From the NCBI RefSeq assembly GCF_000512895.1, contig NZ_CP007033.1, positions 1,909,001-1,973,000 of the forward strand: DNA of 64,000 bases. Reading direction: 5' to 3'. Positions 31,194 to 51,856 of this stretch are shown piece by piece. Within the stretch, counting starts at the first letter, position 1, and every line of letters begins with the position of its first letter. The notes below the pieces were generated by a model, which saw only the letters and a list, made by a program, of their open reading frames with translations, had not been told where the DNA came from and ran no database searches. This DNA comes from Dehalobacter restrictus DSM 9455. GTDB taxonomy: Bacteria > Bacillota > Desulfitobacteriia > Desulfitobacteriales > Syntrophobotulaceae. The translations under genes and the position numbers were made by a program.

Positions 31194-32945
31194 TTATTCT
31201 TCTTTATGATCCTCCTCTTGTCGTAAATATTTTAATTTTGATTCAACGAAGACATTTCCGTTATCTATCTTCAAAATCCGCGAACACATCTTTAATGCCG
31301 TCTGACGATGGGTAATGAGCAGACAAGTGCTCCTGCTGCTAAAATTTTGAATAGCCTTGAGTACTTCCAACTCTGTTTCCATGTCCAGGGCAGACGTCGC
31401 TTCGTCCAGAATCATCACAGGGGCTTTTTTTAAGAAGGCCCTGGCAATCGCGATTCGTTGCGCTTGTCCCTCGGAAAGACCATGCCCGTCCTCTCCGATG
31501 ACCGTATTGACTCCATGCGGCAGCTCTTGGATAAAGTCCAAAGCACATGCAGCCTGAAGGGCAGTTTCCATCTCTTCCGCCGTCGCACTGAGTTTGCCGC
31601 TCCGCAGGTTGTCGGCAATGGTCCCACTGAACAATGTATTTCCTTGCGGAACATAGGTAATCCAATCCCGGGTCACAGCAGTAATTTCATATTTCCGACC
31701 GATCGCATCTGTAAAATAGACCTCGCCATCCGAAGGTCTGACCAAAGCCAGCAGAAGCCTGATCAACGTCGTTTTTCCGACCCCCGAAGACCCTACCAAG
31801 GCTACCATCTCACCGGGTGCTATATCCACCGAAATCTTATCCAAGACCGGTTTTTCTTTCTCATCTGAATAATAGAAGCTAACCTGACGGAAACGAATAC
31901 CGACATCCTTCTCTTGCGGGACCTGCCCTTCCCGCCTCTCCATTTGGATCTTTTCCAGTTCCTGCAGTCGCTCCGTTGACGCCAGCATCGCGATGATTTG
32001 CGGAAAGGCCCTGGCCAAGCTGACAAAAGGCCCTTGAACTTGCTGAACCAATGTCAGAAAAGCAGTCAATGTCCCATAGGAGATTGCCTTTTGAGACAAA
32101 CGGACGATCCCCCAGCCAAACGCAACCAGGTAACCTGTCCAATATCCCAGCGAAATGATCGTATTGGCAGATAAGGTCGTCTTGTTTCTCTGAATCACCC
32201 ACTTCATACGGTTTTGATGCAATCCCTGCAAGGTATCTGTATTTCTGTTTTCCAACCGAAACGCTTTCGTAATGATGAAATTTTGGATGGCTTCCTGAAT
32301 AAACGAGCGGTAGATACTCTCCGATTCCTGCACTTTATGATTCAAGTTCTTCATCTTTCGGCCCCAGATCCGGCTGAACAACACGGTCGAAGGTCCCAGT
32401 ATGAACGCAATTACTGCCAATCGCGGCTCATAATAAAGCAAGGTTACAAAAGAACCCACTAACTGCACGCCTAATGCCACAATACCCGGGATCACACTAA
32501 TAATACAACTGGAGATGTTATTGACATCACTTGTCAACCGTGTCATCAGATCCCCGCTATGATAGTTCGAAAGCGGCAGCCATTCTGTCACCATCATCCT
32601 TTTGAAAAAACGCTGCCTCAGGGCGTTGGAAAAGCCTTCGCTGACGCGTACAGAAAGCAGTGACCCGGCAATCGATAACATGATATTAAGAAGTATCGCA
32701 CCGCCTAAAGCAGCACCGGCCATACCGGCATAAGCCAGTTCTCCTGCAATCGCGTAGTCAATCATATGCTTGGAGAGTATGGCGTTTGCAACACCGAAAA
32801 GTGCCCCTGTCGAAGTAATCAGCAGAATGACGATGAGCCTGGGAAGAAAGGGGAGAACATCCGGTTTTATCCAGCGAACAAAAACTATTCCTTTTTTAAT
32901 TTCATCTTGAATAATCATTCTTTTCTCCTGATATTTTGGGAACAT
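31194..32945 (-). CDS. ABC exporter, fused permease and ATPase
   Basis: A 583-residue half-transporter: six TM helices in residues 1-320 and a nucleotide-binding domain at about 345-575 with Walker A VGSSGVGKTTL, Q-loop YVPQGN, signature LSEGQAQRIAIARAF, Walker B VMILDEATSALD and H-loop LLITHRQ. There is no N-terminal C39 peptidase, so any leader removal would need a separate protease such as the S26 enzyme at 35175. It lies at the edge of the RiPP-type locus, divergent from a c-di-GMP-controlled gene; export of the modified peptide is plausible but not shown. Confidence 0.9.
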   Translation of the reverse strand: MFPKYQEKRMIIQDEIKKGIVFVRWIKPDVLPFLPRLIVILLITSTGALFGVANAILSKHMIDYAIAGELAYAGMAGAALGGAILLNIMLSIAGSLLSVRVSEGFSNALRQRFFKRMMVTEWLPLSNYHSGDLMTRLTSDVNNISSCIISVIPGIVALGVQLVGSFVTLLYYEPRLAVIAFILGPSTVLFSRIWGRKMKNLNHKVQESESIYRSFIQEAIQNFIITKAFRLENRNTDTLQGLHQNRMKWVIQRNKTTLSANTIISLGYWTGYLVAFGWGIVRLSQKAISYGTLTAFLTLVQQVQGPFVSLARAFPQIIAMLASTERLQELEKIQMERREGQVPQEKDVGIRFRQVSFYYSDEKEKPVLDKISVDIAPGEMVALVGSSGVGKTTLIRLLLALVRPSDGEVYFTDAIGRKYEITAVTRDWITYVPQGNTLFSGTIADNLRSGKLSATAEEMETALQAACALDFIQELPHGVNTVIGEDGHGLSEGQAQRIAIARAFLKKAPVMILDEATSALDMETELEVLKAIQNFSSRSTCLLITHRQTALKMCSRILKIDNGNVFVESKLKYLRQEEDHKEE

Positions 32946-33296: not shown

Positions 33297-33356
33297 TAGT
33301 TTTTATATAGTCATCTGTTTTTTCAGCTAGAATGAATATAAAAAAACTAAGCTGGC

Positions 33357-33390
33357 GGCAGCTGGGGAACCAGTTGCTTTTTGTATTTTT
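33357..33390 (+). terminator. riboswitch expression-platform terminator
   Basis: GGCAGCTGG (33357-33365), loop GGAA, CCAGTTGCT (33370-33378), then TTTTGTATTTTT. The aptamer's 3' strand CCAGTTGCC (33284-33292) is almost identical to the terminator's 3' arm, so GGCAGCTGG can pair with either one. That is the layout of a mutually exclusive terminator/antiterminator. It ends 26 bases before the ATG. Confidence 0.75.
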
Positions 33391-33415
33391 ATCTAGTTTG
33401 GAAAGGAAGAGACCA

Positions 33416-35122
33416 ATGATTAAGAAACGTATCACAAAAATCGCCGCTGGAATCTTCAGCTTCACACTTATTGTGAACACGTGCTTCGCTGTTCATACCG
33501 ACAAAATGGTTTCTGCTGCGACTACAGTTAAAGATGTAACCCCCCAGGTGGAATTACTGGGAAACCCGTTCAACAAAGCTACTTTTGCCAAGAATGTCTG
33601 GGACATGCAGGTCTATAACAACCGTATTTATCTCGCCCATGGTGATTTTAATACGAACGCCGGTCCGATCCCGGTCATCTACTATGAGCCATCCGCCCAA
33701 AAATTCATCACGCAATATACCGTTGATGAAGAGGAAATCGCCCAATATAAAGTACTGGACGGCAAACTCTACATCCCTGGCACCGATTCACGGGGAGATT
33801 GGAACAATGGCAATTTCTATACCCTTGAAGATAATGACCAATGGCTCAAAAACGCAACCATTCCGAATGCACTTCATGTTTTCGACATGGCACTCTATAA
33901 CGGTCAGCTTTATGCAGCCTGCGGAACCAGTAAAACAGGTTGGGGCGAAGTTCTTGTCTCCAATGATATGGGGAAAACTTGGACCAGCCGGGTTCCTCTT
34001 GGCTTTACATTTTATGGTTCCTGGGCCACTTCCCTCTTTGAGTTGAATCAAACACTGTATGCTTCAGGAAAGATGATGTACATGAAGCCAACTTCGATCA
34101 CGACATCATACACCAAGTATGTCTCAATGCTTGGAATCACTGACAGCAGCTCCGCTAGACAGATCTATTCAACCAATTTCGCCAATGGCCTCACTTCGTC
34201 CTACGTCTACTATATGAAAAAACCTACAACCTTCCAAAATAAACTTGTATATCTAAATAACCGGATCACCACCTCTCACTGGCTTCCCGATTCTATGTAT
34301 ATTGCCAAAAGCATCAATGAATCCACAAAGGTGATATTCCCTGAGACTTCGGCTGTCCCTGCAGATCTGCTCATCAGAGGCAACAGTCTGTATGCGTTAA
34401 CCAATGTGAAAAATTCTGCCGGCAATTACACGAGTGTCGTCTACCAAACCACCGATCTTCAAACTTGGGACGAAGTATTCCGTTTTAATACAGACACCTT
34501 TGTCAGATCCTTTGAAGAAATGAATGGCGACTTTTACTTCGGTCTAGGCTGCGATTCCGCAACTGTGGCCGCTTCTACAGGCAATATCCTTAAGGTAGCT
34601 AGTTCTGCCTATCAGGACATCCCCCTAATTCCCGTAACCAACAATCCCTCAGCGAGTGAATTAACACCATCAACCGCTGAACTCACACAAACCATTCCTG
34701 CATCGGCTACAGCCCCTATTATTGTGGACAATACCGACAGCAGCTTTATGAGCAATTCCACTTGGACCATCTCTACACAATCCATCGGCTATTACGGCAG
34801 CAACATTCTTAATGACGGTACCGTCGGAGCCGATCAAGGCAAATGGGCCATGTGGGTTCCGACAATAACCGAGTCAGGAAACTATCAACTCTATATGAGA
34901 TGGACAGCAGATTCCACCAGGCCAGCTGCCGCCCCCCTCGAGATTAAATACAACGGTGGCATGGATACGAGCAAAACGGTCAATCAACAGGAAAGCAACG
35001 GTACCTGGGTCCTCATCGGCACCTATGCTTTATCCGCAGGAAGTGATCAATACATCAAGATACTCTGCTCTTCCCCAGGATATACTGCCGCTGATGCTGT
35101 AAAATTAGAAAAAGTGAACTGA
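33416..35122 (+). CDS. secreted propeller-like protein with golvesin-type C-terminal domain
   Basis: 568 residues from ATG 33416, preceded by AAAGGAAGAG; the frame opens at 33332. Signal peptide MIKKRITKIAAGIFSF plus a hydrophobic run, cleavage near VSAATT. Residues about 45-400 repeat motifs such as YNNRIYLAHGDF, YNGQLYAACGTS and GNSLYALTNV, as in beta-propeller or sialidase-like folds. The last 130 residues (IIVDNTDSSF ... YQLYMRWTADS ... AADAVKLEKVN) match the golvesin / xanthan-lyase-associated carbohydrate-binding domain. Expression should respond to c-di-GMP through the upstream riboswitch. Likely binds or cuts exopolysaccharide; no catalytic residues can be named. Confidence 0.8.
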   Translation: MIKKRITKIAAGIFSFTLIVNTCFAVHTDKMVSAATTVKDVTPQVELLGNPFNKATFAKNVWDMQVYNNRIYLAHGDFNTNAGPIPVIYYEPSAQKFITQYTVDEEEIAQYKVLDGKLYIPGTDSRGDWNNGNFYTLEDNDQWLKNATIPNALHVFDMALYNGQLYAACGTSKTGWGEVLVSNDMGKTWTSRVPLGFTFYGSWATSLFELNQTLYASGKMMYMKPTSITTSYTKYVSMLGITDSSSARQIYSTNFANGLTSSYVYYMKKPTTFQNKLVYLNNRITTSHWLPDSMYIAKSINESTKVIFPETSAVPADLLIRGNSLYALTNVKNSAGNYTSVVYQTTDLQTWDEVFRFNTDTFVRSFEEMNGDFYFGLGCDSATVAASTGNILKVASSAYQDIPLIPVTNNPSASELTPSTAELTQTIPASATAPIIVDNTDSSFMSNSTWTISTQSIGYYGSNILNDGTVGADQGKWAMWVPTITESGNYQLYMRWTADSTRPAAAPLEIKYNGGMDTSKTVNQQESNGTWVLIGTYALSAGSDQYIKILCSSPGYTAADAVKLEKVN

Positions 35123-35138: not shown

Positions 35139-35181
35139 AATATAGACAAGCTTCGAGAAAAGCCCGAGGCTTGTCTATATT
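35139..35181. terminator. bidirectional terminator between convergent genes
   Basis: TATAGACAAGC at 35141-35151 pairs with GCTTGTCTATA at 35169-35179, extended by CTCG-type pairs near the loop, with A/T-rich flanks on both sides. It serves the plus-strand secreted protein and the minus-strand S26 peptidase gene, whose stop codon lies inside the stem. Confidence 0.75.
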
Positions 35182-35633
35182 AATTTACGGATTTTCCGGT
35201 ACACTTTCATGATGAAGTATCGGCAAGGCCTGAGAATCAGCCAAATATGAACCAGTGTCTTCAGCCTAAGATCAGAGCAAGGAATACGTTTGTCTTTCCG
35301 CCATATTGCGGGAACGACAGCGATGATTTGTTCCGGATACAGCGGACCTTCAATCCATTGCTGGGCATCCCCTACCATGAAAAAATGGTCTTTCTTCTTT
35401 TTAAGAACCCGATGCATGACATAATAGCTATTCATTCTGCGGATCAGGACAATATCTCCTCTTTTAATCTGGTCGAAGCTGCCCTGGGAGAATTCCACAC
35501 TATCGATTGCATCCCGCAAAAACGGAACCATGCTGCTGCCGGATACGGGAAGTCTGACATCCTGTCCCTGGCTGAGGAGATCCGAGACTACAGGAAACAA
35601 GCCATTGGCTTTCACTTTTTTCACTTGATGCAC
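35175..35633 (-). CDS. S24/S26-family peptidase of the RiPP-type locus
   Basis: 152 residues. SGSSMVPFL places the nucleophile at about Ser34, RGDIVLIRR follows, and YYVMHRVLKK places a histidine at about residue 74 where bacterial type-I signal peptidases have lysine. The protein therefore looks like the Ser-His SipW/ER type. MVGDAQQW matches the family's GD motif. A C-terminal hydrophobic, basic helix (VHIWLILRPCRYFIMKVYRKI) could anchor it to the membrane. GTG start at 35633 inside the end of the kinase gene (13-base overlap). Candidate leader peptidase for the small peptides upstream; this is inferred. Confidence 0.8.
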   Translation of the reverse strand: MHQVKKVKANGLFPVVSDLLSQGQDVRLPVSGSSMVPFLRDAIDSVEFSQGSFDQIKRGDIVLIRRMNSYYVMHRVLKKKKDHFFMVGDAQQWIEGPLYPEQIIAVVPAIWRKDKRIPCSDLRLKTLVHIWLILRPCRYFIMKVYRKIRKLI

Positions 35634-36514
35634 TGATATACCAACTCCACCGCCTCTTGATCCGGTCTGCAGCGCAGCAAATACACCGGTACGGAAGAGA
35701 CTATTTTCTCAAAGATACGCATCGCCTCGTTCATATGTTCCTGATCAAAAAACGGCAGGAAAGCTCTTGGCATGAACTGAATGATCGCCTCCCTGAGGTC
35801 CATCCTACGAATAGAATTCTCGGCTGCTTGTTCCAGAATAATCACTGCTGACAAGGGTGCAGAATCATTCGTATTAATATTTGATGACCCGCTCCAAGGG
35901 GTTCCATAGACAATCACATGGTCTTCCATAATCCGCACAGCAGGATTGTCATCGTTCAACACAAGCACATTCTCCTTATGTTCCTGCCAAAGCCTGGACT
36001 GTGTAGACTTCCCCGTTCCGGACGGCGCTGTAAACATGATTGCTTTATCCTGCCACTTTATCGCAGAAGCATGAATTACCAGTCCTTGTTGTTTTAACAA
36101 GGCATGCCTGAAGACAATCCCCATTAGGGTAAATGCTGTATGGCGCAGCTTCATTCGGACATAGGATTCTTCCAGCTCATTTTTTTCTTGAATTGCTGCA
36201 CAGGTTAGCCCAACATTTCGCCACGCGGCATCAATATCCAACAGTACAAGGATTTCCTCCACAGAGCCATATTTCCTTGTATAAAAATAAAACCCGGCTG
36301 CATTCGGTTTTTTAATACATTTATAACCGGAGCTCTCGTCAGAGAAATTTTCCCCTTGCGGCAAATCAATTTGTTCACTGGTTTGATAGGTAAAGCATAA
36401 ATCAGCGGCCTGAGGTTCCGACACATTGTAGTCAATTAGCCCTTCGAACAGCTCAGCGGGGGTGCTTTCATCCATGTGAATGACGAGTCCTGCGACTTGA
36501 TACTTGGGCAACAA
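35621..36514 (-). CDS. HprK-like kinase of the RiPP-type locus
   Basis: About 297 residues. The C-terminal half has the HPr-kinase P-loop FTAPSGTGKSTQSRLW (about 163-178), preceded by VIHASAIKW and followed by VLNDDNPAVR and YGTPWSG. The N-terminal half is a typical variable domain. Proteins of this fold act as peptide kinases in some lasso-peptide clusters. The frame opens at GTG 36520, but AAAGGAG overlaps that codon and suits TTG 36514. A second, ruined copy lies at 39167-42319. It follows the precursor-like peptides and overlaps the S26 gene. Confidence 0.82.
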   Translation of the reverse strand: MLPKYQVAGLVIHMDESTPAELFEGLIDYNVSEPQAADLCFTYQTSEQIDLPQGENFSDESSGYKCIKKPNAAGFYFYTRKYGSVEEILVLLDIDAAWRNVGLTCAAIQEKNELEESYVRMKLRHTAFTLMGIVFRHALLKQQGLVIHASAIKWQDKAIMFTAPSGTGKSTQSRLWQEHKENVLVLNDDNPAVRIMEDHVIVYGTPWSGSSNINTNDSAPLSAVIILEQAAENSIRRMDLREAIIQFMPRAFLPFFDQEHMNEAMRIFEKIVSSVPVYLLRCRPDQEAVELVYQCIK

Positions 36515-36552
36515 AAACACTCCTTTTGCAGGTATACCTTTTTAAACAACAG

Positions 36553-36593
36553 GATCGAAAAACAGAATAGCACATCCGTCAAAGGACATGCTA
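36553..36593 (-). terminator. attenuator between precursor peptides and kinase
   Basis: On the minus strand TAGCATGTCC pairs with GGATGTGCTA around TTTGAC (36568-36593), with two G-U pairs that would be mismatches on the other strand, and is followed by TTCTGTTTTTCG. The structure therefore belongs to the minus-strand RNA. It would let precursor transcripts exceed downstream enzyme transcripts, a common arrangement in RiPP operons. Confidence 0.6.
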
Positions 36594-36621
36594 TACGTAC
36601 TTCCATTTGGTACTGCTCGGC

Positions 36622-36762
36622 TTATGCATTCGTTCTAGGCTGTACACCGTCAATAATACAGATACCTACGTAATCACATACAGAACCTTGCTGCACTACA
36701 GCAAACTCATCTTCAGAAGAGAGCTGTACAAATTCAAATTCTGGCTTATTATACTGTTTCAA
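36622..36762 (-). CDS. precursor-like peptide 2 (46 aa)
   Basis: TTG at 36762 preceded by AGAGGTGAT. The peptide opens MKQYNKPEFEFVQLSSEDEF, then AVVQQGSVCDYVGICIIDGV and QPRTNA. The first 21 residues match the leaders of the peptides at 36801 and 42414 (MKxYxKPxxxxxxLxxE), while the rest differs apart from a CxxxGxC motif shared with peptide 1 (Cys29, Cys35). Placement after a radical SAM/PqqD pair supports a RiPP precursor: leader about 1-21, core about 22-46. The product is unknown. Confidence 0.75.
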   Translation of the reverse strand: MKQYNKPEFEFVQLSSEDEFAVVQQGSVCDYVGICIIDGVQPRTNA

Positions 36763-36800
36763 TATAATCACCTCTTAACATTGTAAATAATCAAAAAATC

Positions 36801-36977
36801 CTATTCTTGGTTGTTAGCAGTAAAAACCTTTCCGCCATAAGTAAATGTACAGAATGGCACATTATCCGGGCAAGACCCGGTCGTTGTACATTGCTGGCTT
36901 CCTACTCCCACAGCTGCAAAGCTTTCTTCAACACGTAATGAAATAAAATGAAACTCGGGTTTAAAATAACACTTCAT
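36801..36977 (-). CDS. precursor-like peptide 1 (58 aa)
   Basis: ATG 36977 follows GAAGAAGG. The leader reads MKCYFKPEFHFISLRVEESF, then AAVGVGSQQCTTTGSCPDNV and PFCTFTYGGKVFTANNQE. Core cysteines are at 30, 36 and 43, the first two in CxxxGxC as in peptide 2. A sigma-A-type promoter lies just upstream (37015-37043), so it can be expressed apart from the enzyme genes. Cys-rich cores next to radical SAM/SPASM enzymes are the usual substrates for thioether (sactipeptide or ranthipeptide) formation; that chemistry is inferred here. Confidence 0.8.
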   Translation of the reverse strand: MKCYFKPEFHFISLRVEESFAAVGVGSQQCTTTGSCPDNVPFCTFTYGGKVFTANNQE

Positions 36978-37014
36978 CCTTCTTCACCCCATTCAAATAA
37001 TAACCTATGAAAGG

Positions 37015-37043
37015 AGTATACTCGCAGATTCCAGTTTTTTCAA
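37015..37043 (-). promoter_or_regulatory. sigma-A-type promoter of the precursor genes
   Basis: On the minus strand TTGAAA (37038-37043) and TATACT (37015-37020) are separated by exactly 17 bases. Transcription would begin near 37008, about 30 bases before peptide 1. It sits in the gap between the radical SAM gene and peptide 1. Confidence 0.65.
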
Positions 37044-37082
37044 GTCCTATTTTTTGTATATTTATAGAAACAATTAGTGAAC

Positions 37083-38216
37083 TCAGTTGTTTTTTTGGTT
37101 ATTATAGTCTGTCCTTCTTTTCGCCAGTTCACAGAGATACGGCGCTGGCTTGTCATAGCTTCCGGTTTCCTGATACAGTCTTCCAGGGCAGTGTTCACAT
37201 AGTACTTGATATTCGCATTCCTTGCACGCCTTGCAGACCGGGATCTGGGCACACTTTTGTTTCAACTCCACCCAGGCATTTTGAAATCCGGAGATAAGCG
37301 GATACACTTTGGGTTCCCCCATGATCCCGCAGGGAGCCATGCTGCCATCCCAATTCACCCAGCCGGTACAAGATCCGGACATACATTGAAAGGCAAAATT
37401 TTCATCAGTCTGGGCCTTTGATGCAAGGATTTCCCGCATTGCCTCAGCGACAGCATCATCGTTTGGATTCACGGTTTTTTCCGTTTCCCCGATGATTTCG
37501 TTGTCAAAGCCGATCTTTCCTCTCTCCGTCATATGGATTTCAAAATTCAGCAATTCTTCCGGAGAAAGGCGGCATTCGCAAGAAGCAGTATTACAGCCTT
37601 CACGCACCGGCGCGATATAATTGACCACGCCCAGAACGCATTTCCTCTTCAGGGCAAAATTATGGATCTCGTCAAAGTCCGCTCTATTATATTGTGTAAC
37701 CGTGGTTTTGATCTCCGTAGGGATCCCTTTGTCCATTAACAGATCAACAGCCCGCGTCGCCCGGTCATATCCATCGGCAAATCCAGTTACTTTCTTGTAG
37801 GTATCACGGGAAGCACCATACAACGTAATACTCACAAGTTTCGGCGGAATTCTGGAAAGCCAATTGACAAATTCCGGCGTAATCAGTGTTCCGTTGGTGA
37901 ATATTTTAATGATTAAACCCAAGTTCATCAATTTTTCATACAACTCTTTAAAATCCTTGCGTAACAGCACCTCTCCGCCGGTCAGCGTAAGAAACAGCAG
38001 TCCGGCATCTCGGGCCTCTTCAGCCAATCGAACCCATTGTTCTGTTGTTAACTCTTTTGCTTTGGCCTGTTTATCATTCGCGGCATAACGCACATAGCAC
38101 ATCTTACATTGCAAGTTGCACCTTGCTGTCAGCTCAAAGGAAGAAGCAATAAACTCTTTTCTTTTTTTGCTCTCCAATGCCAAATTGAGATAGAGCTCAT
38201 TCCAAGTTTTTGCCAT
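37083..38216 (-). CDS. radical SAM/SPASM peptide maturase
   Basis: 377 residues. Cys33, Cys37 and Cys40 in TARCNLQCKMCY bind the 4Fe-4S cluster that cleaves SAM; LTLTGGEVLL is the GGE motif. The C-terminal SPASM domain carries many further cysteines: CMSGSCTGWVNWDGSMAPCG and CKACKECEYQVLCEHCPG, enough for auxiliary clusters. ATG 38216 follows AAGGAGA. It is directly downstream of the PqqD-like gene and upstream of two short precursor-like genes. Expected to modify their cores; the bond it forms cannot be told from sequence. Sulfatase-maturing enzymes share SPASM but no sulfatase is present. Confidence 0.88.
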   Translation of the reverse strand: MAKTWNELYLNLALESKKRKEFIASSFELTARCNLQCKMCYVRYAANDKQAKAKELTTEQWVRLAEEARDAGLLFLTLTGGEVLLRKDFKELYEKLMNLGLIIKIFTNGTLITPEFVNWLSRIPPKLVSITLYGASRDTYKKVTGFADGYDRATRAVDLLMDKGIPTEIKTTVTQYNRADFDEIHNFALKRKCVLGVVNYIAPVREGCNTASCECRLSPEELLNFEIHMTERGKIGFDNEIIGETEKTVNPNDDAVAEAMREILASKAQTDENFAFQCMSGSCTGWVNWDGSMAPCGIMGEPKVYPLISGFQNAWVELKQKCAQIPVCKACKECEYQVLCEHCPGRLYQETGSYDKPAPYLCELAKRRTDYNNQKNN

Positions 38217-38249
38217 CAGACAGAAATCTCCTTATCAGCGTTCACTTTA

Positions 38250-38516
38250 CTACGCTTCAATCAATCCTTTATCTTTAATGCTTTGGATAAATTCCTGAAT
38301 ATCCTTCTTGGCGATATCTTCGTCAACGCTGTATTCCGCCATCAAAACCTGAAGAAGCTCTTCCTCGGTTGTACCCTCTTTCAACTTCCCCCACAGAAGC
38401 GCGCCGCTTTCACTGAGTGTCATAATGCCATTAAATTCAACAACGCGCTCACCCAGTGGCACAACAACCCATTGACCGGCTACTTCGCGTAATAAGAATC
38501 CCTCTTTTAATTTCAA
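38250..38516 (-). CDS. PqqD-like precursor-recognition protein
   Basis: 88 residues: LKEGFLLREVAGQWVVVP, VEFNGIMTLSESGALLWGKL and a C-terminal helix pair with DIQEFIQSIKDKGLI, the winged-helix fold (RRE) of PqqD/LasB1 proteins that bind RiPP leaders and hand them to the modifying enzyme. Start TTG 38516 after GAGGAG. It lies 33 bases ahead of the radical SAM gene. The conserved KPEF-type leader of the small peptides is its probable ligand. Confidence 0.9.
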   Translation of the reverse strand: MKLKEGFLLREVAGQWVVVPLGERVVEFNGIMTLSESGALLWGKLKEGTTEEELLQVLMAEYSVDEDIAKKDIQEFIQSIKDKGLIEA

Positions 38517-38597
38517 TTACTATCACTCCTCATATACGCATAATAACTAAATATTACCATATAGAATTAAAAAAACATACAATTATTTTTAAAAATT

Positions 38598-39122
38598 TCA
38601 TTTATTTCTCTGTTCCAGTTCCCAGATCCGTCTTTTCAACTTTTTAATATAATGAACTATTCCAAATAAAAGCGTGACAAGTAGAACACCCGTCAAAACC
38701 CCCGCAGTATCGATGCAAATATCCAGGATCCGCGACGTGCGCATCGCAGAGAATCTTTGATGATATTCATCAATGATCCCGAAAAGCGGGGATAGCAATA
38801 CCGAAAACACAGCTGCCGGCACAACACGGTTAAAAGCGATATTCAGCATGATGCACATAACGGTGCCAATGAGTGCATATTCAATAAAATGAGCTGCCTT
38901 TCTGAGCAGTTGATTAAAGGTGACTTTCCAAAACATATCTCCTCTGTCCAGATCAAAATACCGATCCAGCCAATCAATCATCTGGTCAGCGATCCTGATG
39001 CTTAAATGATTCGACTGCGTTCCTGTCTGACTGCTTAGCTTCCATGAAAGGAAGACTAGAAACACAAGCACAATAAACAAGCCAACTGTCCCAATTATTC
39101 TTCTTATGATGCTGCTTTTCAT
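38598..39122 (-). CDS. VanZ-like membrane protein
   Basis: 174 residues with four hydrophobic segments (about 8-26, 65-85, 90-112 and 130-155). VTFNQLLRKAAHFIEYALIG and FGIIDEYHQRF are the VanZ motifs (K-x2-H-F-x-E-Y and DE-x-H-Q). VanZ proteins give low-level glycopeptide or lipopeptide tolerance and are also found beside RiPP genes, where they may protect the producer. ATG 39122 follows GAGGTAAC. Probably heads the PqqD-radical SAM unit. Confidence 0.85.
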   Translation of the reverse strand: MKSSIIRRIIGTVGLFIVLVFLVFLSWKLSSQTGTQSNHLSIRIADQMIDWLDRYFDLDRGDMFWKVTFNQLLRKAAHFIEYALIGTVMCIMLNIAFNRVVPAAVFSVLLSPLFGIIDEYHQRFSAMRTSRILDICIDTAGVLTGVLLVTLLFGIVHYIKKLKRRIWELEQRNK

Positions 39123-39791
39123 TTGTTACCTCAACCATATACTGTTCAAAATATATCCTTGTCACCTTAATGGACCAGACAATGCTGCAACATCTCCACT
39201 GCCTCCCTGTCAGGACGGCATTTCAGACTGTATACGCCTACACCTGAAAGTACCTCAGACAACGTATGTAAGCACATTGCCATGATGCTTTGATCATAAT
39301 ACGGCAAAAAACACCGCGGGGTGATCTTGGCTGCAGCCTGTGCTACGGGGATCCGTGTAATCTGATTTTCCGGAGCCTGCTCCAGTAAGACGATGGCTTG
39401 CAAAGGCGCAGATCCATTGAAATAAAGTGTTTTCGATCCGCTCCAACCGTGTTTAAAAAGCAAACGATTGTGAAATAAAATCTCCATTATGAAGCCGGAC
39501 ACAATCGGATTAATCATCTGTTCATTACCCGCATACGTTATCTCATCCCGGCTCCAGTCCGCATTCGCATCAGCTCTCGCAATCACTTTTCCGGTCGTAT
39601 CGTCCGTCAAATAAATGGAGGTAGGGTAATGTGAATGGTAATATAAAGCATACCGATTTACGCCAATGAAAGCATACAGGTTTCTGCCACAAAGCATACA
39701 ACTTTTCGCCAACAACCATACAACTTAAATCAAAAGACGCTACCGGACTTTTGTTAGAATAGATCTAGCAAAGAAGTCAGGAGCGGATGGG

Positions 39792-41306
39792 ATGAAAGGA
39801 TTTAAGATGTATAAAGAGATACAGCAACTTAAGGAAATTGGATTCACTCGGTCTCGGGCAGCGAAGCAGCTGAACATAAATCGAGAAACCGTAACACGGT
39901 ATTGGAACATGACAGCGGATGAATTTGCTAAACAGCTATATAGCATTTCCCGGGAAATGCTACTTTCGAAATATGAGGAAATTATCACCGGTTGGTTACG
40001 CCAATATCCAACGATGACAGCCGCACAAGTATGCGATTGGCTCAAGGAGCATTACAAAGAGGATATCAAAGAACGTACTGTCAGCCGTTATGTCAAAGGG
40101 TTACGAGAGGAATATAATCTAAAAAAATCAAATCATCCCAGGGATTATGAGGCTGTAGAAGAGCTCCCAATGGGGCAGCAGTTGCAGGTGGACTTTGGTG
40201 AGAAGTGGATGCAATCCATTGGTGGAGGGCGTGTGAAGATTCGTTTTGCAGCCTTCGTATTGGCTCATGCACGGTACAAATGGGCCTTCTTTCAAACCCG
40301 ACCATTCACAACAAACGATCTAGTTTCAAACTGCCATGAGTGCTTTAGATATATGGGTGGAATGCCGCTAGAACTGGTATTTGATCAGGATAGCATCGTC
40401 AGCGTTTCAGAAAACTATGGAGATATCATTCATACTTTTGAGTTTGAGAAGTTCCGGCAAGAATGCAATTTAAAAGTATATCTCTGCCGTGCAGCTGATC
40501 CGGAAAGTAAGGGCAAGATTGAGAATGTGGTTAAATTCATCAAGTATAATTTCCTTGAAAACAGACTGTTTGCTGACGAGGAAGTTCTCAACAGTTCATT
40601 TCTGAATTGGTTGGATAGAACCGGCAATGCGAAAATTCACGGCACTACTAAAAAGGTACCGGCCAAAGTGTTTGAGGATGAACGTGAACACCTTATACCC
40701 CTGCTGGACATCCGCTCAAACAGTGATGTACCCATCTACAGAAACGTCCGCAAAGATAATACCATCGTCTACGACAGCAATCGGTACTCTTTACCTCTTG
40801 GTACATACAACAACCAAAAAGAAGTCAGCATTGAGGCTAAGAGTGGAAAATTAACAATTATGACCGTATTCGGTGAGTTCATCTATGAACATCCAATCTC
40901 AACCGGCAGAGGTCAATTAATCAAAAGCACCAGTCATTCCAGAGACGTTACAGACTCCGTGGATGAAGCTCAAAACACCGTTGATGAGCTACTGCTGTTC
41001 AAAGCAACAGATTTTCTGAAAACTATTCGAACGGAAAAGGCTCGTTATGCCCGTGATCAGTTCAGGCTGCTACAAACATTATGCGATAAATATAGGATTG
41101 ATGAAGTACTAAATGCCATCAAATATTGTGAGGTGAGCAAACTCTTCGGAATAACTTATGTAAAGGATTTTTTAGAGCACAGTGTCAAACCAAAACAAGT
41201 AATCGTCCTCAATACTATTCCGGTTAGCAATAGCAAATACCATGTAACCACTGAGAAACGCTCCCTGGATGTTTATGCAAAGGCAGGTGGCATCCATCAT
41301 GAATGA
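39792..41306 (+). CDS. istA: IS21-family transposase IstA
   Basis: 504 residues: N-terminal helix-turn-helix [21 protein letters not shown], then a DDE catalytic core with [11 protein letters not shown] (first Asp), [10 protein letters not shown] (second Asp) and [19 protein letters not shown] (Glu), then a C-terminal beta-barrel-like region with [13 protein letters not shown] 39792 follows AGGAGCGGATGGG. It appears intact. Confidence 0.95.
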
Positions 41307-42039
41307 ACGGATTGAGCGTGTCAATGCATTAGTTTCAGGACTGCATTTGCCCGCTGTCGATATAGAAAGGCTTTATGCTAAAAAGAACAATCTTACACCG
41401 CTAGAAAGCATCGAAGTTTTTCTTACCGAGCAGCAACGTCTTAGGACGGAAAAGCAAAATCTCATTCGTAGAAGAAGAGCCAATCTACCCGCCGAAAAAA
41501 CATTGGAAACTTTCGACTTCGGATTTCAACGCAGCGTGTCCAAAGAGCAGATGCTAAGGCTATTCGACATGACCTGGGTAGAGCAAGCTTTCAACATTTG
41601 TTTCTTGGGACCACCTGGTATTGGAAAATCGCATTTGGCCTTATCCTTAGCGGTACAAGCTTTAAACCTGGGTTATGCCGCTGCTTTCACTACCTTAGAT
41701 GAACTCATGATTACCCTGAAAACCTCGCAAATCTCGACAGCCAGTAATAGACGAATCAAAATACTAAACTCAGCAGCCCTGGTTATTATTGATGAGGTTG
41801 GCTTTATGCCACTTTCTACAACAGAAGCAAATTTGTTCTTCGGCTTCGTCTCCTCTATGTCCGAGAAAACATCATTGATCATTACCTCAAATAAGGGTTT
41901 TGATGAATGGGCTGACTTTTTAGGTGATGCTACAATTACAACAGCGATTTTAGACAGACTTATCCACCACTGCGAGATAATAAACATGACAGGCAACAGC
42001 TACAGACTCCAACACAGGAAGACTATTACCCAGTTATAA
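41299..42039 (+). CDS. istB: IS21 helper ATPase IstB
   Basis: About 246 residues from ATG 41299, which overlaps the istA stop by 8 bases. AAA+ motifs: Walker [17 protein letters not shown], Walker [14 protein letters not shown] and sensor [14 protein letters not shown]. The length is normal for IstB, which directs IstA to target DNA. Confidence 0.95.
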
Positions 42040-42413
42040 AATGTTGTATGGTTTGTGGCGAAAAGTTGCTGGTTTTACTTGACTGCTTACAGGTAATCAC
42101 CATCAGAAATACAAACCCATTTGGCGCGGTCATCTACAAGGATCTTCCCTTGAGGAACTGCAATGCAATTACTTGCTCTTGTCACAATCTCCAGGTCGAT
42201 GAATTCCGGGTATTATTTTACTGCAAATGCTTCGAGTATCCGAAACCTTCCCGCCGCTCCGAAGCTACTCGGATCGTCAGCCCGGCAATTTGATAGTAAT
42301 AATAATTAATAACGATCAACCCTTCTCAAGGAAATGAACCTGCCTAATATTGACAGGTCCAATAAATCATACCATATTTTCGCAAGCTGTACTATCCCTT
42401 TTACGCGTTTTTC

Positions 42414-42578
42414 TTAATGCCTGCCTCTACCATTACCTTTGCCCCAGCCATTGTGATTACCGTTATTCCCCAGATCAGAAGGTACTGGTATTTCAATTGT
42501 TGTCGATGCTGTGCAGGCCAGGCTTTCTTCCGCTCTTAATTCAATGTACTCCAAACTTGGTTTTACATACGCTTTCAT
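42414..42578 (-). CDS. precursor-like peptide 3 (54 aa)
   Basis: ATG 42578 (or the adjoining ATG 42581) after AGAGAAG. It reads MKAYVKPSLEYIELRAEESL, then ACTASTTIEIPVPSDLGNNG and NHNGWGKGNGRGRH. The leader matches peptides 1 and 2, but the core is different: one Cys, then a Gly/Asn/His-rich, Arg-ending tail without CxxxGxC. A c-di-GMP riboswitch aptamer lies 56 bases upstream on the same strand. The kinase gene downstream is the broken one. May be a substrate of the same maturase or an orphan of a decayed second module. Confidence 0.72.
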   Translation of the reverse strand: MKAYVKPSLEYIELRAEESLACTASTTIEIPVPSDLGNNGNHNGWGKGNGRGRH

Positions 42579-42737: not shown

Positions 42738-44104
42738 TTATCTTTAATTTCTAAGAGAATACACATTACCATTTGTTGCTTTCGCTACACTGGTAACCAA
42801 AGCATAAGGTTCATCCTTTTCATTCACTAGTCCGTAATTTGTATCTAGCTTATAAGATTTTGTTAATCCTTCAGCCGGAGGATCAACCCACATGAAAAAT
42901 TCAGAACCGACAAGAAATGGCATATTGAATAATGCTTTTTGATATATTTCATAAGCTTTTGCTCTCTCCGTCTGCGTATCTACTCGCATCCCAGCCCCTA
43001 CGGTACACGGGAGTCCGCTATCATACGCCGGAAAAGACCATTCGCTTATCATTATTGGCTGCTTTGCTTTATTGTAAATCTGTGCAAATATCTCACTGAG
43101 CTCAACGTTCTGATAAACACCATTCACTTTTATTTGGTCATAAGCTGTTTCCGCTTGCAGGTCAACTTTTCCATAGTAATTAAACGTACTTATATCCGTA
43201 TAATTTCTGCCGATACCCCATACCAAATCATAACATTTCTCAGTTCCGCATGCATTTCTGCTGCCTAATATCATATGGTTTTTATCGTATTTCTTTATTG
43301 CCCCTGTTGTTATCGTATAATATTTTTCTATAATCGCTTTTTCAAAGTCTGTTTTATCCGTATTGATGGCCAACTGGTTCTTTCCGGTAAATAAGGTCAT
43401 TTTTCCAAGTGTCTCGAATGAAGGATAATCTGTCCCCCAAGCCTTGTTCAAACTACTAATATTTCCATATCTATTTTGCAGCCAGTTGATCAAGGCAATC
43501 TTTGCCGTATGGGTTTTATCTTTTTTTATGACCAAGTCCGTAAGTCCGTATGTCGTATCAAAACTTTGGCCCCACCAGGAAAGTTCGTTATCCAGATAAT
43601 AGCCGAAAAGCCATGGGTCATTCTGATCTTCTTGGATCACCTTTCTAGCTAAGTCATCACAATAGTACTCAAATTTTGGACTGAAAACATTCGGAAAACA
43701 ATGATTGCTTGCGTCCAATCCGTATATTACATAATCTTCTCCGTATTTAGAAAAACTGCTCCCGAATCCAAATGATACCGTATGCGCTAGTCCACGATAC
43801 CTCAAAGACGGTGCTGAATCTATTCCCAGAAGATTAAATCCCCAACTGTTTAACCGCTCCGCAGTATTTTCTGCCCATTCTTCCTCAGAACCATAGATGC
43901 TTTTTACATTCTGTTCATAAGGGGAATAACCCAATGCCTCTGAGTAAATTCCTTTATATGTCATTCTCTGTGTTCCGACGGCAATAAATCCATTCCCATT
44001 AGGCGCAATCACCCACCATTTATCCCCTATTTTTTGGGTATGAAAAAATCCCGTTTTTTTACCGCTTATCGTCGTATCTGTTTCGATTTTAAGCTCAGGA
44101 TATG
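42738..44104. repeat. 1.37-kb duplicated segment, copy A
   Basis: Collinear with 46273-47639 at a constant offset of 3535 bases; all stretches compared are identical, including synonymous positions and the antisense frame. It starts just past the stop codon and ends abruptly at the TATCC codon pair that begins the shared YPELKIET protein segment. Confidence 0.95.
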
Positions 44105-44840
44105 AGCTAACTGCATTAACTTCATAAACTTTTTTATTTATTGTGCATTTTGCGTTATCGTACTTTGTTTCTACGGCCGCACTTGTCAGAGCAGGAATTC
44201 CTTTCTTTGTACAATTCTCCGAAGAAAAAATATATTCTTTCTCCCATATTTTTTTACCATCTAACTCGCATACTACCCCTGTAATTGATTTATTATTTAA
44301 ACTTATCTTGAGCACATACGGCTGGTTATATTTCCACTCAATTCCATCTCCTACGTATGAACCAACTTTTAGTTTTGTCTCCCCATAATCTTGCACACAC
44401 CATTGCCCATTAAACATTTCTTGAAGTTCAATATAATGCATTTCATTTTTAGCCTCAGGCCCTTCAACAAGTGCTAACGACCAATAATTATTATTGTCTG
44501 AATAAACTGATATCCCCGCCGACTTATACTTATCCCCTTGCGATACTTGAATAGTAACTTCAGATTCAAAAGTCAAATCAGTCCCAACGGTAGAATCATA
44601 TTTAGCAAAGCTCTTTTTCAATGAATTATTTTCGAAACAACCATTATTTACTTCCCAAGATATATCGTCAGTGATCCACTGAGGGCTACCATCACTTCCA
44701 GCAACGTAGGCGGAGAAATCATCCTGCAATCTTTGACTGCTTACACTGGGTTCACTTCCAGCTAGTGTTGTTGGTGCCACTAAAACTAATATTAGGCTTA
44801 TCGTGATTAACATTTTGATTGTTTTTCTTAAAATGTACAT
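42744..44840 (-). CDS. secreted chimeric glycoside hydrolase with N-terminal concanavalin-like domain
   Basis: 698 residues. Signal peptide about 1-28. Residues about 38-235 form a LamG/concanavalin-like domain (DDFSAYVAGSDGSPQWITDD, WSLALVEGPEAK, HYIELQEMFNGQW) closely similar to that of the protein at 45123. Residues 247-698 are a TIM-barrel hydrolase of clan-A type: YYLDNELSWWG gives the probable acid/base Glu419, PIMISEWSFPA the probable nucleophile Glu600. The hydrolase part is identical to residues 83-534 of the protein at 46279. Two tandem c-di-GMP aptamers precede it, the nearer ending about 10 bases before the GGAGAGGG site. Substrate unknown; agarase- or beta-galactosidase-like enzymes are the nearest in style. 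Confidence 0.85.
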   Translation of the reverse strand: MYILRKTIKMLITISLILVLVAPTTLAGSEPSVSSQRLQDDFSAYVAGSDGSPQWITDDISWEVNNGCFENNSLKKSFAKYDSTVGTDLTFESEVTIQVSQGDKYKSAGISVYSDNNNYWSLALVEGPEAKNEMHYIELQEMFNGQWCVQDYGETKLKVGSYVGDGIEWKYNQPYVLKISLNNKSITGVVCELDGKKIWEKEYIFSSENCTKKGIPALTSAAVETKYDNAKCTINKKVYEVNAVSSYPELKIETDTTISGKKTGFFHTQKIGDKWWVIAPNGNGFIAVGTQRMTYKGIYSEALGYSPYEQNVKSIYGSEEEWAENTAERLNSWGFNLLGIDSAPSLRYRGLAHTVSFGFGSSFSKYGEDYVIYGLDASNHCFPNVFSPKFEYYCDDLARKVIQEDQNDPWLFGYYLDNELSWWGQSFDTTYGLTDLVIKKDKTHTAKIALINWLQNRYGNISSLNKAWGTDYPSFETLGKMTLFTGKNQLAINTDKTDFEKAIIEKYYTITTGAIKKYDKNHMILGSRNACGTEKCYDLVWGIGRNYTDISTFNYYGKVDLQAETAYDQIKVNGVYQNVELSEIFAQIYNKAKQPIMISEWSFPAYDSGLPCTVGAGMRVDTQTERAKAYEIYQKALFNMPFLVGSEFFMWVDPPAEGLTKSYKLDTNYGLVNEKDEPYALVTSVAKATNGNVYSLRN

Positions 44841-46272: not shown

Positions 46273-47639
46273 TTATCTTTAATTTCTAAGAGAATACACA
46301 TTACCATTTGTTGCTTTCGCTACACTGGTAACCAAAGCATAAGGTTCATCCTTTTCATTCACTAGTCCGTAATTTGTATCTAGCTTATAAGATTTTGTTA
46401 ATCCTTCAGCCGGAGGATCAACCCACATGAAAAATTCAGAACCGACAAGAAATGGCATATTGAATAATGCTTTTTGATATATTTCATAAGCTTTTGCTCT
46501 CTCCGTCTGCGTATCTACTCGCATCCCAGCCCCTACGGTACACGGGAGTCCGCTATCATACGCCGGAAAAGACCATTCGCTTATCATTATTGGCTGCTTT
46601 GCTTTATTGTAAATCTGTGCAAATATCTCACTGAGCTCAACGTTCTGATAAACACCATTCACTTTTATTTGGTCATAAGCTGTTTCCGCTTGCAGGTCAA
46701 CTTTTCCATAGTAATTAAACGTACTTATATCCGTATAATTTCTGCCGATACCCCATACCAAATCATAACATTTCTCAGTTCCGCATGCATTTCTGCTGCC
46801 TAATATCATATGGTTTTTATCGTATTTCTTTATTGCCCCTGTTGTTATCGTATAATATTTTTCTATAATCGCTTTTTCAAAGTCTGTTTTATCCGTATTG
46901 ATGGCCAACTGGTTCTTTCCGGTAAATAAGGTCATTTTTCCAAGTGTCTCGAATGAAGGATAATCTGTCCCCCAAGCCTTGTTCAAACTACTAATATTTC
47001 CATATCTATTTTGCAGCCAGTTGATCAAGGCAATCTTTGCCGTATGGGTTTTATCTTTTTTTATGACCAAGTCCGTAAGTCCGTATGTCGTATCAAAACT
47101 TTGGCCCCACCAGGAAAGTTCGTTATCCAGATAATAGCCGAAAAGCCATGGGTCATTCTGATCTTCTTGGATCACCTTTCTAGCTAAGTCATCACAATAG
47201 TACTCAAATTTTGGACTGAAAACATTCGGAAAACAATGATTGCTTGCGTCCAATCCGTATATTACATAATCTTCTCCGTATTTAGAAAAACTGCTCCCGA
47301 ATCCAAATGATACCGTATGCGCTAGTCCACGATACCTCAAAGACGGTGCTGAATCTATTCCCAGAAGATTAAATCCCCAACTGTTTAACCGCTCCGCAGT
47401 ATTTTCTGCCCATTCTTCCTCAGAACCATAGATGCTTTTTACATTCTGTTCATAAGGGGAATAACCCAATGCCTCTGAGTAAATTCCTTTATATGTCATT
47501 CTCTGTGTTCCGACGGCAATAAATCCATTCCCATTAGGCGCAATCACCCACCATTTATCCCCTATTTTTTGGGTATGAAAAAATCCCGTTTTTTTACCGC
47601 TTATCGTCGTATCTGTTTCGATTTTAAGCTCAGGATATG
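46273..47639. repeat. 1.37-kb duplicated segment, copy B
   Basis: Partner of 42738-44104 (offset 3535). Same orientation; sequence identical wherever compared. The intervening 2.2 kb holds the tandem riboswitches and the anchored surface protein. Confidence 0.95.
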
Positions 47640-47883
47640 CACGTATTAAAATGGGTTCTTCGTCTCTGTATGCCAAAGCAACTATATCAATCTCTATAGT
47701 TATTTCAGATTTAACCGAAACATCAGGCTCTGATTTTAATACAGAAGAGCAAAGAAGATCGTTTTGCGAATCGTATATTATTTTTGCTGAATTTTGTTCA
47801 CTAAATCCAAAGGCAGGAAAACCTGTGGAAAAAATAAGAAAGAACAACAATAAATAAAATATTTTTTTTGTTAAAATCTTCAA
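46279..47883 (-). CDS. secreted glycoside hydrolase, single-domain version
   Basis: 534 residues. Signal peptide 1-27 (MKILTKKIFYLLLFFLIFST ...), a short unique linker (about 30-82), then the clan-A-type hydrolase domain 83-534 with LDNELSWW (Glu255) and ISEWSFPA (Glu436). Identical from residue 83 to the catalytic part of the protein at 42744 but without its concanavalin-like domain and without a riboswitch in front. Start TTG 47883 with AAGGGGA. Probably the parent copy, since its N-terminus is simple and continuous. Confidence 0.84.
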   Translation of the reverse strand: MKILTKKIFYLLLFFLIFSTGFPAFGFSEQNSAKIIYDSQNDLLCSSVLKSEPDVSVKSEITIEIDIVALAYRDEEPILIRAYPELKIETDTTISGKKTGFFHTQKIGDKWWVIAPNGNGFIAVGTQRMTYKGIYSEALGYSPYEQNVKSIYGSEEEWAENTAERLNSWGFNLLGIDSAPSLRYRGLAHTVSFGFGSSFSKYGEDYVIYGLDASNHCFPNVFSPKFEYYCDDLARKVIQEDQNDPWLFGYYLDNELSWWGQSFDTTYGLTDLVIKKDKTHTAKIALINWLQNRYGNISSLNKAWGTDYPSFETLGKMTLFTGKNQLAINTDKTDFEKAIIEKYYTITTGAIKKYDKNHMILGSRNACGTEKCYDLVWGIGRNYTDISTFNYYGKVDLQAETAYDQIKVNGVYQNVELSEIFAQIYNKAKQPIMISEWSFPAYDSGLPCTVGAGMRVDTQTERAKAYEIYQKALFNMPFLVGSEFFMWVDPPAEGLTKSYKLDTNYGLVNEKDEPYALVTSVAKATNGNVYSLRN

Positions 47884-47971: not shown

Positions 47972-49075
47972 ATGAAAAGTGTGTATAATCTGCTTCTTCA
48001 TCTGCTAAGAGTATTTATTAACGGTGAAATACCAGATAAGGAATTACTTGCCTCCGTTGATGGCGTTGAACTTTATAATCAAGCCAGACTACAAGGTGTT
48101 TCTTCATTTCTGTTTGAGACTGTTTATCAACATAATGATTTGTTAAAAATCGATCACAATGTATTGACTCATTGGAAAGAGAAAACGGTTGTGACTGCCG
48201 CACGTCAGTTGATGATGCTTCCAACGATAGAAACAATCTTTAATCTTTTTGAGACCAATGGCATAACAGCTATATCACTTAAAGGACTTGTCTTTAAGGA
48301 ACAATATGCTCGGCCTGAACTACGTTCGATGAATGATCTAGATGTATTAATCAACGAAAAACAGATGAATCAATGCATAGAAGCGATGACTTCTCTAGGT
48401 TATAAGCCGAATGAACTAAATTACAATGATCCTGATCATATGCATATCGATATGATAAAAGCGGGTACATTCGCCGTTGAGCTTCACCGAACCCTTTGGC
48501 ATCCCAAATATATGCAAAAAATCGACAACAGCGACTGGGTAGATCATATCTGGAAAGACAAGCGTCTTCAAACGGTAGCCGGATTCCAATTTTATTGCTT
48601 ATCTCCGGAGGATGAATTGATCAATGCTGTTATTCACACAGCAAGGCATTTAAAACACTCTAATGCAAATCTTCGTCTTCTATCAGATTTCGTTCTATTT
48701 TTTAATTCTTACCGCAATCAAATTGATATAAACTACATTGAACAAACCTTAAAGTCAATGGCAATCTTGGATTTCTACTATTATTTAATGGATACATGCC
48801 GATTATACTTAGGATTACATCTTCCTGATAACTATCAATTAAATTCGACCAAGAATTCAGTGATAATCATTCAGAATATCATGAACAAAGAGGAAATGAT
48901 TATAAGCAGCGATAGAGATCAAGAAAAAAAAATTAATGGTTATCAGTATTTGCTCCAAAAGATAAAACTTGTTATCTCCAACAGCTCCATATACAATAAG
49001 CTCTTAAAAATCGTTCATCCTTTACGATCAAAAGCACGTTTTCTACGGAAAATCGGACTACATTTTCGGTATTAA
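47972..49075 (+). CDS. nucleotidyltransferase-fold protein of PqqD/RiPP-type loci
   Basis: 367 residues of the Nucleotidyltransf_5 type: GITAISLKGLVFKEQYA, then RSMNDLDVLINEKQM, whose Asp pair is the metal-binding site, and FAVELHRTLWHPKY. Family members are frequent next to PqqD, HprK-like kinase and lasso-peptide genes, where some modify the peptide. ATG 47972 follows GGAGGAAAATA. It stands alone on the plus strand and overlaps the 3' end of the tyrosine kinase gene by 4 bases. Its link to the peptide locus is by family association. Confidence 0.8.
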   Translation: MKSVYNLLLHLLRVFINGEIPDKELLASVDGVELYNQARLQGVSSFLFETVYQHNDLLKIDHNVLTHWKEKTVVTAARQLMMLPTIETIFNLFETNGITAISLKGLVFKEQYARPELRSMNDLDVLINEKQMNQCIEAMTSLGYKPNELNYNDPDHMHIDMIKAGTFAVELHRTLWHPKYMQKIDNSDWVDHIWKDKRLQTVAGFQFYCLSPEDELINAVIHTARHLKHSNANLRLLSDFVLFFNSYRNQIDINYIEQTLKSMAILDFYYYLMDTCRLYLGLHLPDNYQLNSTKNSVIIIQNIMNKEEMIISSDRDQEKKINGYQYLLQKIKLVISNSSIYNKLLKIVHPLRSKARFLRKIGLHFRY

Positions 49076-50537: not shown

Positions 50538-51856
50538 TTATTTTCCGACTCCGTCATATATAAAACCTATCGTTTCAAGCTCATTCCTGTCATAAATATT
50601 TCTGAAATCAAAGAAATAATTGCCGTTCATTTTACTTTTCATCTTAGCTAAGTCCATACTCCGAAACTGGTTCCATTCCGTAAGCAGGACAACAGCCTGA
50701 GCATCTGCTATAGCTGCATATTCATTCTCGGCATAATCAAGATCCAAATTCAGAAATGCAACTTTTTTGGCGTTCTCCATTGCAATCGGATCATAAACAG
50801 AAAGACGTGCCCCTCTTTTATGCAACTCATGAATTATCGTAATTGAAGGAGCCTCCCGCATATCATCGGTCCCTGGCTTAAAAGCAAGTCCTAAGACGGC
50901 AATCCGCTTGCCTTGAATATCCCCCATTTTTGTGATGATTTTATCAACCATGCGTAACTTTTGAGATTGGTTCGCAATAATTACAGCATCTACAATTGAA
51001 ATATCAACGCCAAACTCTCTTCCAATATGCACTAACGCCTTTGTATCTTTTGGAAAACAACTGCCCCCGTATCCCGGACCTGCATGCAAAAAAACTTTCC
51101 GATTCGCTTATCCAATCCCATCGCCCTTGAAACATGCTGCACATTTCCCCCTGCAGCCTCACATAGACGAGATATCTCATTAATAAAAGTGATCTTTGTG
51201 GCAAGGAAGGCATTTGAAGCGTATTTAATAATTTCTGCTGTTTCGATATTGGTGAGAACAAAAGGGTGATTATTGAGATAAAGGACTCTATAAACATCAC
51301 GCATGATCTCTTCAGCCTTTACATGATCTGATCCAATGACAATCCTTTCTGGATGCATGAAATCATTGACCGCTGCTCCCTCTCTAAGAAACTCAGGGTT
51401 AGAAACAACATCATAATCGATGTTGAGCTTACGTTTTTCTAAAACTTCTTTTATCGTCTGTTTTACTAATTTCCCAGTTCCTACTGGCACGGTGGACTTA
51501 TTCACAATAACCTTGTAGCAATTCATGTTTTCTGCAATTTTCCTTGCAGCTGCTAGAACATAATCTAAATCTGCGGATCCATCATCCTGAGGCGGTGTCC
51601 CGACTGCAATAAAAACAACATCCGACACATCCACAGCCATTGAATAATGGGTGGTAAAATCCAATCTGCCTGCATAATAATTCTTCGTCACAAGATCTTG
51701 AAGACCCGGTTCATAGATTGGAATGATCCCCTTCTTTAATGTCTCTATCTTATTTTCGTCAATATCCACACAGATCACACTATGTCCAAACTCAGATAAG
51801 CAGGCTCCTGTTACCAAGCCAACATACCCTGTGCCAATAACTGCTATTTTACTCAT
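50538..51856 (-). pseudogene. ugd: UDP-glucose 6-dehydrogenase, frameshifted
   Basis: Two overlapping frames make one enzyme of about 440 residues. The 5' part (51032-51856) has the NAD-binding start KIAVIGTGYVGLVTGACL and VNKSTVPVGTG; the 3' part (50538-51089) has AGPGYGGSCFPKD with the catalytic Cys, then RIAVLGLAFKPGTDDMREAP. The frame is lost in a run of seven A on the plus strand (51088-51094). One extra base would give RIGKFFLHAGPGYGG, matching the family. Either a true lesion, a phase-variable tract or a sequencing error. It makes UDP-glucuronate for the epimerase next door. Confidence 0.88.

Follow-up and report, generated by a model that had tools for sequence, protein, structure and literature searches.

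A probable LPP-like RiPP gene cluster with an added radical SAM enzyme, next to exopolysaccharide genes in Dehalobacter restrictus

We analysed a 64,000-nucleotide stretch of Dehalobacter restrictus DSM 9455 (contig NZ_CP007033.1, positions 1,909,001 to 1,973,000; hereafter the window), in which three short peptides, P1 to P3, are encoded among genes for peptide maturation and export (Table 1). We interpret this locus, with a probability of about 0.8, as a cassette for ribosomally synthesized and post-translationally modified peptides (RiPPs) that resembles the Linear Polyphosphorylated Peptide (LPP) system, carries a radical S-adenosylmethionine (rSAM) arm, and lies beside exopolysaccharide genes. 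In the proposed pathway, a discrete PqqD-type RiPP recognition element (RRE) would grip the Tyr-x-x-Pro of a common leader, and an HprK-like kinase would phosphorylate a serine 3-6 residues past the conserved [FL]A. In the B-type peptides P1 and P2, the rSAM/SPASM enzyme would also modify the CxxxGxC core, most likely through a Cys-based (thioether) crosslink; the A-type peptide P3 would take a kinase-only branch. An S26 protease with a Ser-His-Asp triad would remove the leader at or just past the conserved Ala, and an MsbA-like exporter would secrete the product. Because the cassette contains each LPP part, we infer that binding, phosphorylation, cleavage and export would take place here, the first three by analogy with LPP biochemistry (PMC13381572). 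The chemistry of the rSAM enzyme, the export step and the biological role are predictions.

What we observed directly is the gene set, its conservation, its catalytic motifs, the specificity of the leader and the association of cysteine cores with the rSAM enzyme. A preliminary description had proposed that the three short open reading frames (ORFs) are RiPP precursors with a constant leader and a variable core. We found that all three frames are real and lie on the minus strand; a plus-strand reading of the same coordinates gave no matching peptides. Their leader, Y-x-K-P-x6-L-x2-E-[ED]-x-[FL]-A, occurs three times in the 64 kb window, against about 0.0002 matches expected from composition, and was absent from 302 kb of unrelated background loci. 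It had not been recognised as any known family, and indeed neither Pfam nor NCBIfam models it; the leader profile also matched no peptide in the PDB, LppA included. A leader profile built from 23 leaders gave 22 matches in 8 of 83 genomes of the class, all within cassettes and most of them members of the training set, and none in the remaining 75 at E 0.001. The whole D. restrictus genome holds four matches: P1 to P3 account for three, and the fourth belongs to a second cassette at a distance of about 24-30 kb.

The proposal of a precursor family gained support from homologous short frames, which adjoin orthologous enzymes in Desulfosporosinus, in a family-level relative and in more distant Bacillota; one of them, in the closest relative (L045 9797-9979), matches P2 with a phmmer E-value of 8e-14. 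Ratios of nonsynonymous to synonymous substitution (dN/dS), calculated for four pairs of orthologous precursors of Desulfosporosinus, were 0.05, 0.14, 0.19 and 0.20. The precursor relatives are thus under purifying selection and hence are genes, and these ratios, with a leader count far above expectation, led us to reject a chance or non-coding origin of P1-P3. The claim that the peptides diverge completely after the leader held only between subtypes; within a subtype, different species keep similar cores, with amino-acid identities of 87% and 80%.

The three peptides do share a leader, but they do not form one equivalent set. CxxxGxC is restricted to P1 and P2, as had been noted. A-type precursors, such as P3, occupy an upstream position and in most cases read [IV]ELRxEESLA...; orthologues of P3 occur in L045 and in the Desulfosporosinus loci L013, L046, L072 and L073. 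B-type precursors carry the motif S-x(0-2)-C-x3-G-x-C and lie directly 3' of the rSAM gene in the window, L045, L013 and L046. Two of the Desulfosporosinus loci, L072 and L073, lack the rSAM gene; they keep the A precursors, kinase, RRE, peptidase and exporter, and have no B-type or Cys-rich precursor. At least two core cysteines were present in all 14 rSAM-adjacent precursors and in none of 12 others (Fisher test, 1e-7), a value that overstates the evidence, as the test takes related loci as independent. This count leaves out the gut loci L016, L018, L020-L022 and L069; the contrast is seen inside individual loci as well as when sister loci are compared. In addition, the kinases fall into two distinct clades, one neighbouring A precursors and the other neighbouring B precursors (support 100/100 and 93/95). 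Because P3's class is found without an rSAM enzyme in other genomes, P1 and P2 are likely the only rSAM substrates in the cassette.

The rSAM enzyme itself is consistent with this assignment. Beyond its CX3CX2C motif, seven cysteines (278, 296, 331, 334, 340, 343 and 362) are invariant in the alignment. Its AlphaFold model (pLDDT 86.6) gave SkfB (6efn), SuiB (5v1q), PqqE and anSME as best Foldseek matches, and among these the peptide maturases SkfB and SuiB, which share the CX3CX2C and SPASM cysteines with the enzyme, have the closest fold. As in sactipeptides and ranthipeptides, an rSAM/SPASM maturase stands with a Cys-bearing core; unlike in SkfB and SuiB, no RRE is fused to the enzyme, and the discrete RRE is shared with the kinase pathway. 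Thioethers are a common product of rSAM/SPASM maturases. We weighed action on CxxxGxC, which the association suggests, against a simpler account: the peptides would only be phosphorylated and freed of their leader, the rSAM enzyme would act elsewhere in the exopolysaccharide locus, and CxxxGxC, once exported, would make a disulfide or bind a metal. Indeed, no rSAM enzyme is needed to complete the LPP gene set (PMC13381572; L072 and L073), the rSAM product is deduced and not observed, and the best NCBIfam matches, all under cutoff, include small-molecule enzymes such as AhbD. However, multi-Cys cores and rSAM adjacency go together without exception; this, the position of B precursors directly 3' of the rSAM gene in four loci and the kinship of its fold to peptide maturases make this account unlikely.

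The remainder of the cassette resembles the LPP system closely. LPP, published in May 2026, are encoded by lppAKBSDN of Paenibacillus alginolyticus, and both phosphorylation and leader cleavage were demonstrated experimentally: LppB binds YxxP, LppK places one to four phosphates on Ser3 of the core, and LppS cleaves off a leader that is presented by LppB, with low efficiency where the core lacks phosphate (PMC13381572). In LppB (structure 9x8z), the Tyr and the Pro of this motif are held by D70 and F74. The RRE profile matches LppB 9x8z (E 7.9e-5), PbaB1 9x90, TbiB1 and TfuB1, and its invariant D72 and F76 align with these two residues (D-x3-F). HprK1 is invariant at G169, K170, T172, D190 and H149, and its model (pLDDT 92.8) led Foldseek to PEPCK and HprK/P (1kkl, E 6e-6). 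In the S26 peptidase, the triad Ser34/His74/Asp89 is invariant across 15 aligned homologues, the endoplasmic reticulum/SipW catalytic type rather than a Ser-Lys dyad; its profile reached SEC11 in the PDB, but only weakly, with the Ser and the His aligned, and phmmer searches of the PDB with single S26 and HprK sequences returned nothing meaningful. All neighbours named in the preliminary description (rSAM, PqqD, HprK-like, S26/S24-like and ABC exporter) were recovered. The peptidase and exporter genes adjoin each other in L045, L013, L046 and L073, and in L072 lie in the next region but one; genes for an NTP_transf_5 nucleoside triphosphate (NTP) transferase also lie beside the cassette in L013, L046, L072 and L073.

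Thus the discrete RRE, HprK-like kinase, SpI-like (SipW-type) Ser/His/Asp peptidase, NTP transferase and MsbA-like transporter of LPP loci are all present, as are a YxxP leader, a variable core, a polysaccharide locus and a Ser soon after the leader; a macrolactam cyclase is lacking in both. The leader alignment places a candidate Ser 3-6 residues past [FL]A in nearly all precursors, and the [FL]-to-Ser spacing of five in most A-type peptides equals that of LPP (F-3 to S3). By contrast, the leader reads YxKPx6LxxEEx[FL]A here and YxxPxVLxHQxIxFETxxS in LPP: the distance from P to F/L is 13 rather than 10, and HQ and FET are absent. The rSAM/SPASM enzyme, the CxxxGxC precursors and the split into two classes of precursor, each with its own kinase clade, set the cassette apart from LPP, and 'radical' does not occur in the text of PMC13381572, which was checked apart from its supplementary tables. 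Because the LPP gene set is present, the precursor consensus is not, and that text is silent on radical enzymes, we conclude that the cassette is LPP-like with an rSAM arm and is not an LPP cassette; its chassis was already known, and the rSAM arm is the apparently new part.

Other known systems share parts of the cassette. Paeninodin-type lasso clusters also combine an RRE, an HprK-like kinase, an NTP transferase (PMC13381572) and an exopolysaccharide neighbourhood, the PqqD protein matches lasso RREs, and at L073 (5028-8702, Desulfosporosinus) a lasso cyclase (PF00733) and B2 (PF13471) lie next to an A module. The cassette might therefore be a paeninodin-like cluster that has lost its cyclase. 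We regard this as very improbable: L073 excepted, the ORFs of the cassette in the window and of its sister cassettes showed no cyclase or B2, the leader has YxxP where WxxP is typical of paeninodin, and the lasso genes of L073 come with a second RRE and a second HprK of their own. Lasso membership was rejected, since reading the cassette-region ORFs and searching the cassette genes with Pfam revealed no Asn-synthase-like cyclase or B2. SynChlorMet systems (NCBIfam ScmC-F) likewise bring together HprK-like, PqqD-like and rSAM/SPASM proteins; membership was rejected because ScmC/D/E/F scores fell far under the NCBIfam cutoffs (ScmC, 26.9 against 125 bits). In the literature, we found nothing joining HPr kinase, PqqD and radical SAM, nor anything on SynChlorMet, and a 2014 survey of RiPPs in anaerobes does not mention Dehalobacter.

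Besides the overstated Fisher value, several points weigh against the LPP-like interpretation with an rSAM arm. The product, its phosphorylation and its crosslink are predictions from the genes. Of the LPP consensus YxxPxVLxHQxIxFETxxS / Px9Fx[T/A], the precursors have only YxxP. The Ser spacing is inconstant: from [FL], it is four in B-type relatives and seven in P1 and P2 (counted after [FL]A, +3/+4 in relatives and +6 in P1 and P2). Matches of the kinase, peptidase and exporter to named families lie under curated cutoffs, and here an opposite-strand gene separates the exporter from the operon. Finally, the spread is patchy: the rSAM enzyme was found in just 7 of the 83 class genomes at E 1e-60, and rSAM, kinase and leader were unmatched in the other four Dehalobacter genomes at the thresholds used. 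This distribution is consistent with horizontal transfer or loss.

The failure to find the cassette in those four genomes also bears on the possibility that the whole locus is a decaying relic. An IS21-type element, which the preliminary description lacked, sits between the remnants of HprK2, the A-module kinase, and separates P3 from the rest of the cassette. HprK2, whose damage that description did not mention either, is a pseudogene that has lost its P-loop region and its frame; P3 in D. restrictus may thus depend on HprK1 or be orphaned, its own kinase being dead. A nearby UDP-glucose dehydrogenase gene also seems frameshifted. Yet the genes for the rSAM enzyme, RRE, HprK1, S26 peptidase, ABC exporter and three precursors are all intact and have retained the catalytic residues, and the same genome has a second rSAM cassette; we consider a relic quite unlikely.

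Within the LPP-like interpretation, a further idea is tentative: the cassette could define a hybrid RiPP class, in which one core carries both an rSAM crosslink in CxxxGxC and one or more phosphates on a neighbouring Ser, two precursor/kinase modules share a single RRE, protease and exporter, and the NTP transferase then joins the phosphopeptide, at the cell surface, to a moiety linked to a nucleotide or to polysaccharide. On the LPP-like reading, the recently discovered route to phosphopeptide RiPPs reaches into strict anaerobes, among them a bacterium that respires organohalides. Cysteine-core precursors are present in loci that have the rSAM gene and absent from sister loci that lack it; this natural paired control makes substrate assignment, the order of modification and kinase/precursor pairing directly testable. 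The leader signature, in turn, is a searchable handle for small genes outside Pfam and NCBIfam models.

Table 1. Features of the cassette and its surroundings (window positions unless a contig is given).
Feature	Position	Strand	Remarks
P1, B2-type precursor	36622..36762	minus	TTG start after AGAGGTG; LKQYNKPEFEFVQLSSEDEFAVVQQGSVCDYVGICIIDGVQPRTNA; core CDYVGIC; leader hidden Markov model (HMM) E 1.1e-10
P2, B1-type precursor	36801..36977	minus	ATG start; MKCYFKPEFHFISLRVEESFAAVGVGSQQCTTTGSCPDNVPFCTFTYGGKVFTANNQE; core CTTTGSC; leader HMM E 2.2e-13
P3, A-type precursor	42414..42578	minus	ATG start; MKAYVKPSLEYIELRAEESLACTASTTIEIPVPSDLGNNGNHNGWGKGNGRGRH; His/Gly/basic tail, without CxxxGxC; leader HMM E 1.2e-15
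Radical SAM/SPASM enzyme	37083..38216	minus	CX3CX2C (C33, C37, C40); Pfam E 1e-24
PqqD-family RRE, predicted leader-binding protein	38250..38516	minus	Pfam PqqD E 1.9e-16
HprK1, intact HprK-like kinase of B module	35621..36520	minus	HprK/PEPCK fold, P-loop intact
S26 signal-peptidase-like protein, putative leader peptidase	35175..35633	minus	TIGR02228 (archaeal signal peptidase) E 1.3e-5, best match, under cutoff
MsbA-like ABC exporter	31194..32945	minus	without peptidase domain; TIGR02203 E 1.6e-89, top NCBIfam match, under equivalog cutoff
NTP_transf_5 nucleotidyltransferase (LppN-like family)	47972..49075	plus	PF14907 9e-53; near cassette
VanZ-family protein	38598..39122	minus	PF04892 1e-15; syntenic in closest relative (L045 7655-8170)
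IS21-type element	39699..42068	plus	istA 39792-41306, istB 41269-42039; 26-nt inverted repeats (39699-39724, 42043-42068), 92% complementary
HprK2 3' remnant (A-module kinase)	39167..39650	minus	P-loop region deleted; tblastn with G006 and G037 HprK2
HprK2 5' remnant	42093..42330	minus	frame broken; tblastn and three-frame reading
L044, second cassette of the same genome	G000:C1:1968000-1987900		about 2.7-6.9 kb past window end; RRE, rSAM, S26, two kinases, A-type and Cys precursor

In the order of transcription on the minus strand, the cassette comprises P3, the broken HprK2 carrying the IS21 element, VanZ, the RRE, the rSAM/SPASM enzyme, P2, P1, HprK1 and the S26 peptidase; the exporter lies beyond, past a plus-strand golvesin-domain gene. 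L045 (genome G006) has the identical gene order without the insertion element and golvesin gene, and the orders in L013 and L046 are closely similar. The adjoining exopolysaccharide region encodes Wzz (PF02706), a ParA/BY-kinase-like ATPase and UDP-glucose dehydrogenase.

The rSAM-adjacent precursor of the second cassette, MKKEYTKPMLDAKEYAQFESVFADCNKGNAGVGCIDNVTDWTPTGSSYAAFGEQKGPK, has a different leader, and the Cys core of this locus (CNKGN...C) recurs in the distant same-phylum loci L070 and L071. Related rSAM enzymes, kinases and, in most cases, RREs occur in the gut Bacillota loci L016, L018, L020, L021, L022 and L069, whose precursors are longer, with a leader MKxxYxKP or a variant and several cysteines in the stretches read; these loci form a broader sister group.

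The Golvesin-C-domain protein (33332-35122) has a paralogue at L044 6301-7395, one beside each D. restrictus cassette; these proteins are possibly surface partners, or passengers. The UDP-glucose dehydrogenase gene (50538-51856) is split by its apparent frameshift into two overlapping ORFs and is intact in L045 (439 aa). Next to P3, two glycoside-hydrolase-like genes (42744-44840, PF02449, and 46279-47883) have a seemingly identical 3' portion, suggestive of a recent duplication.

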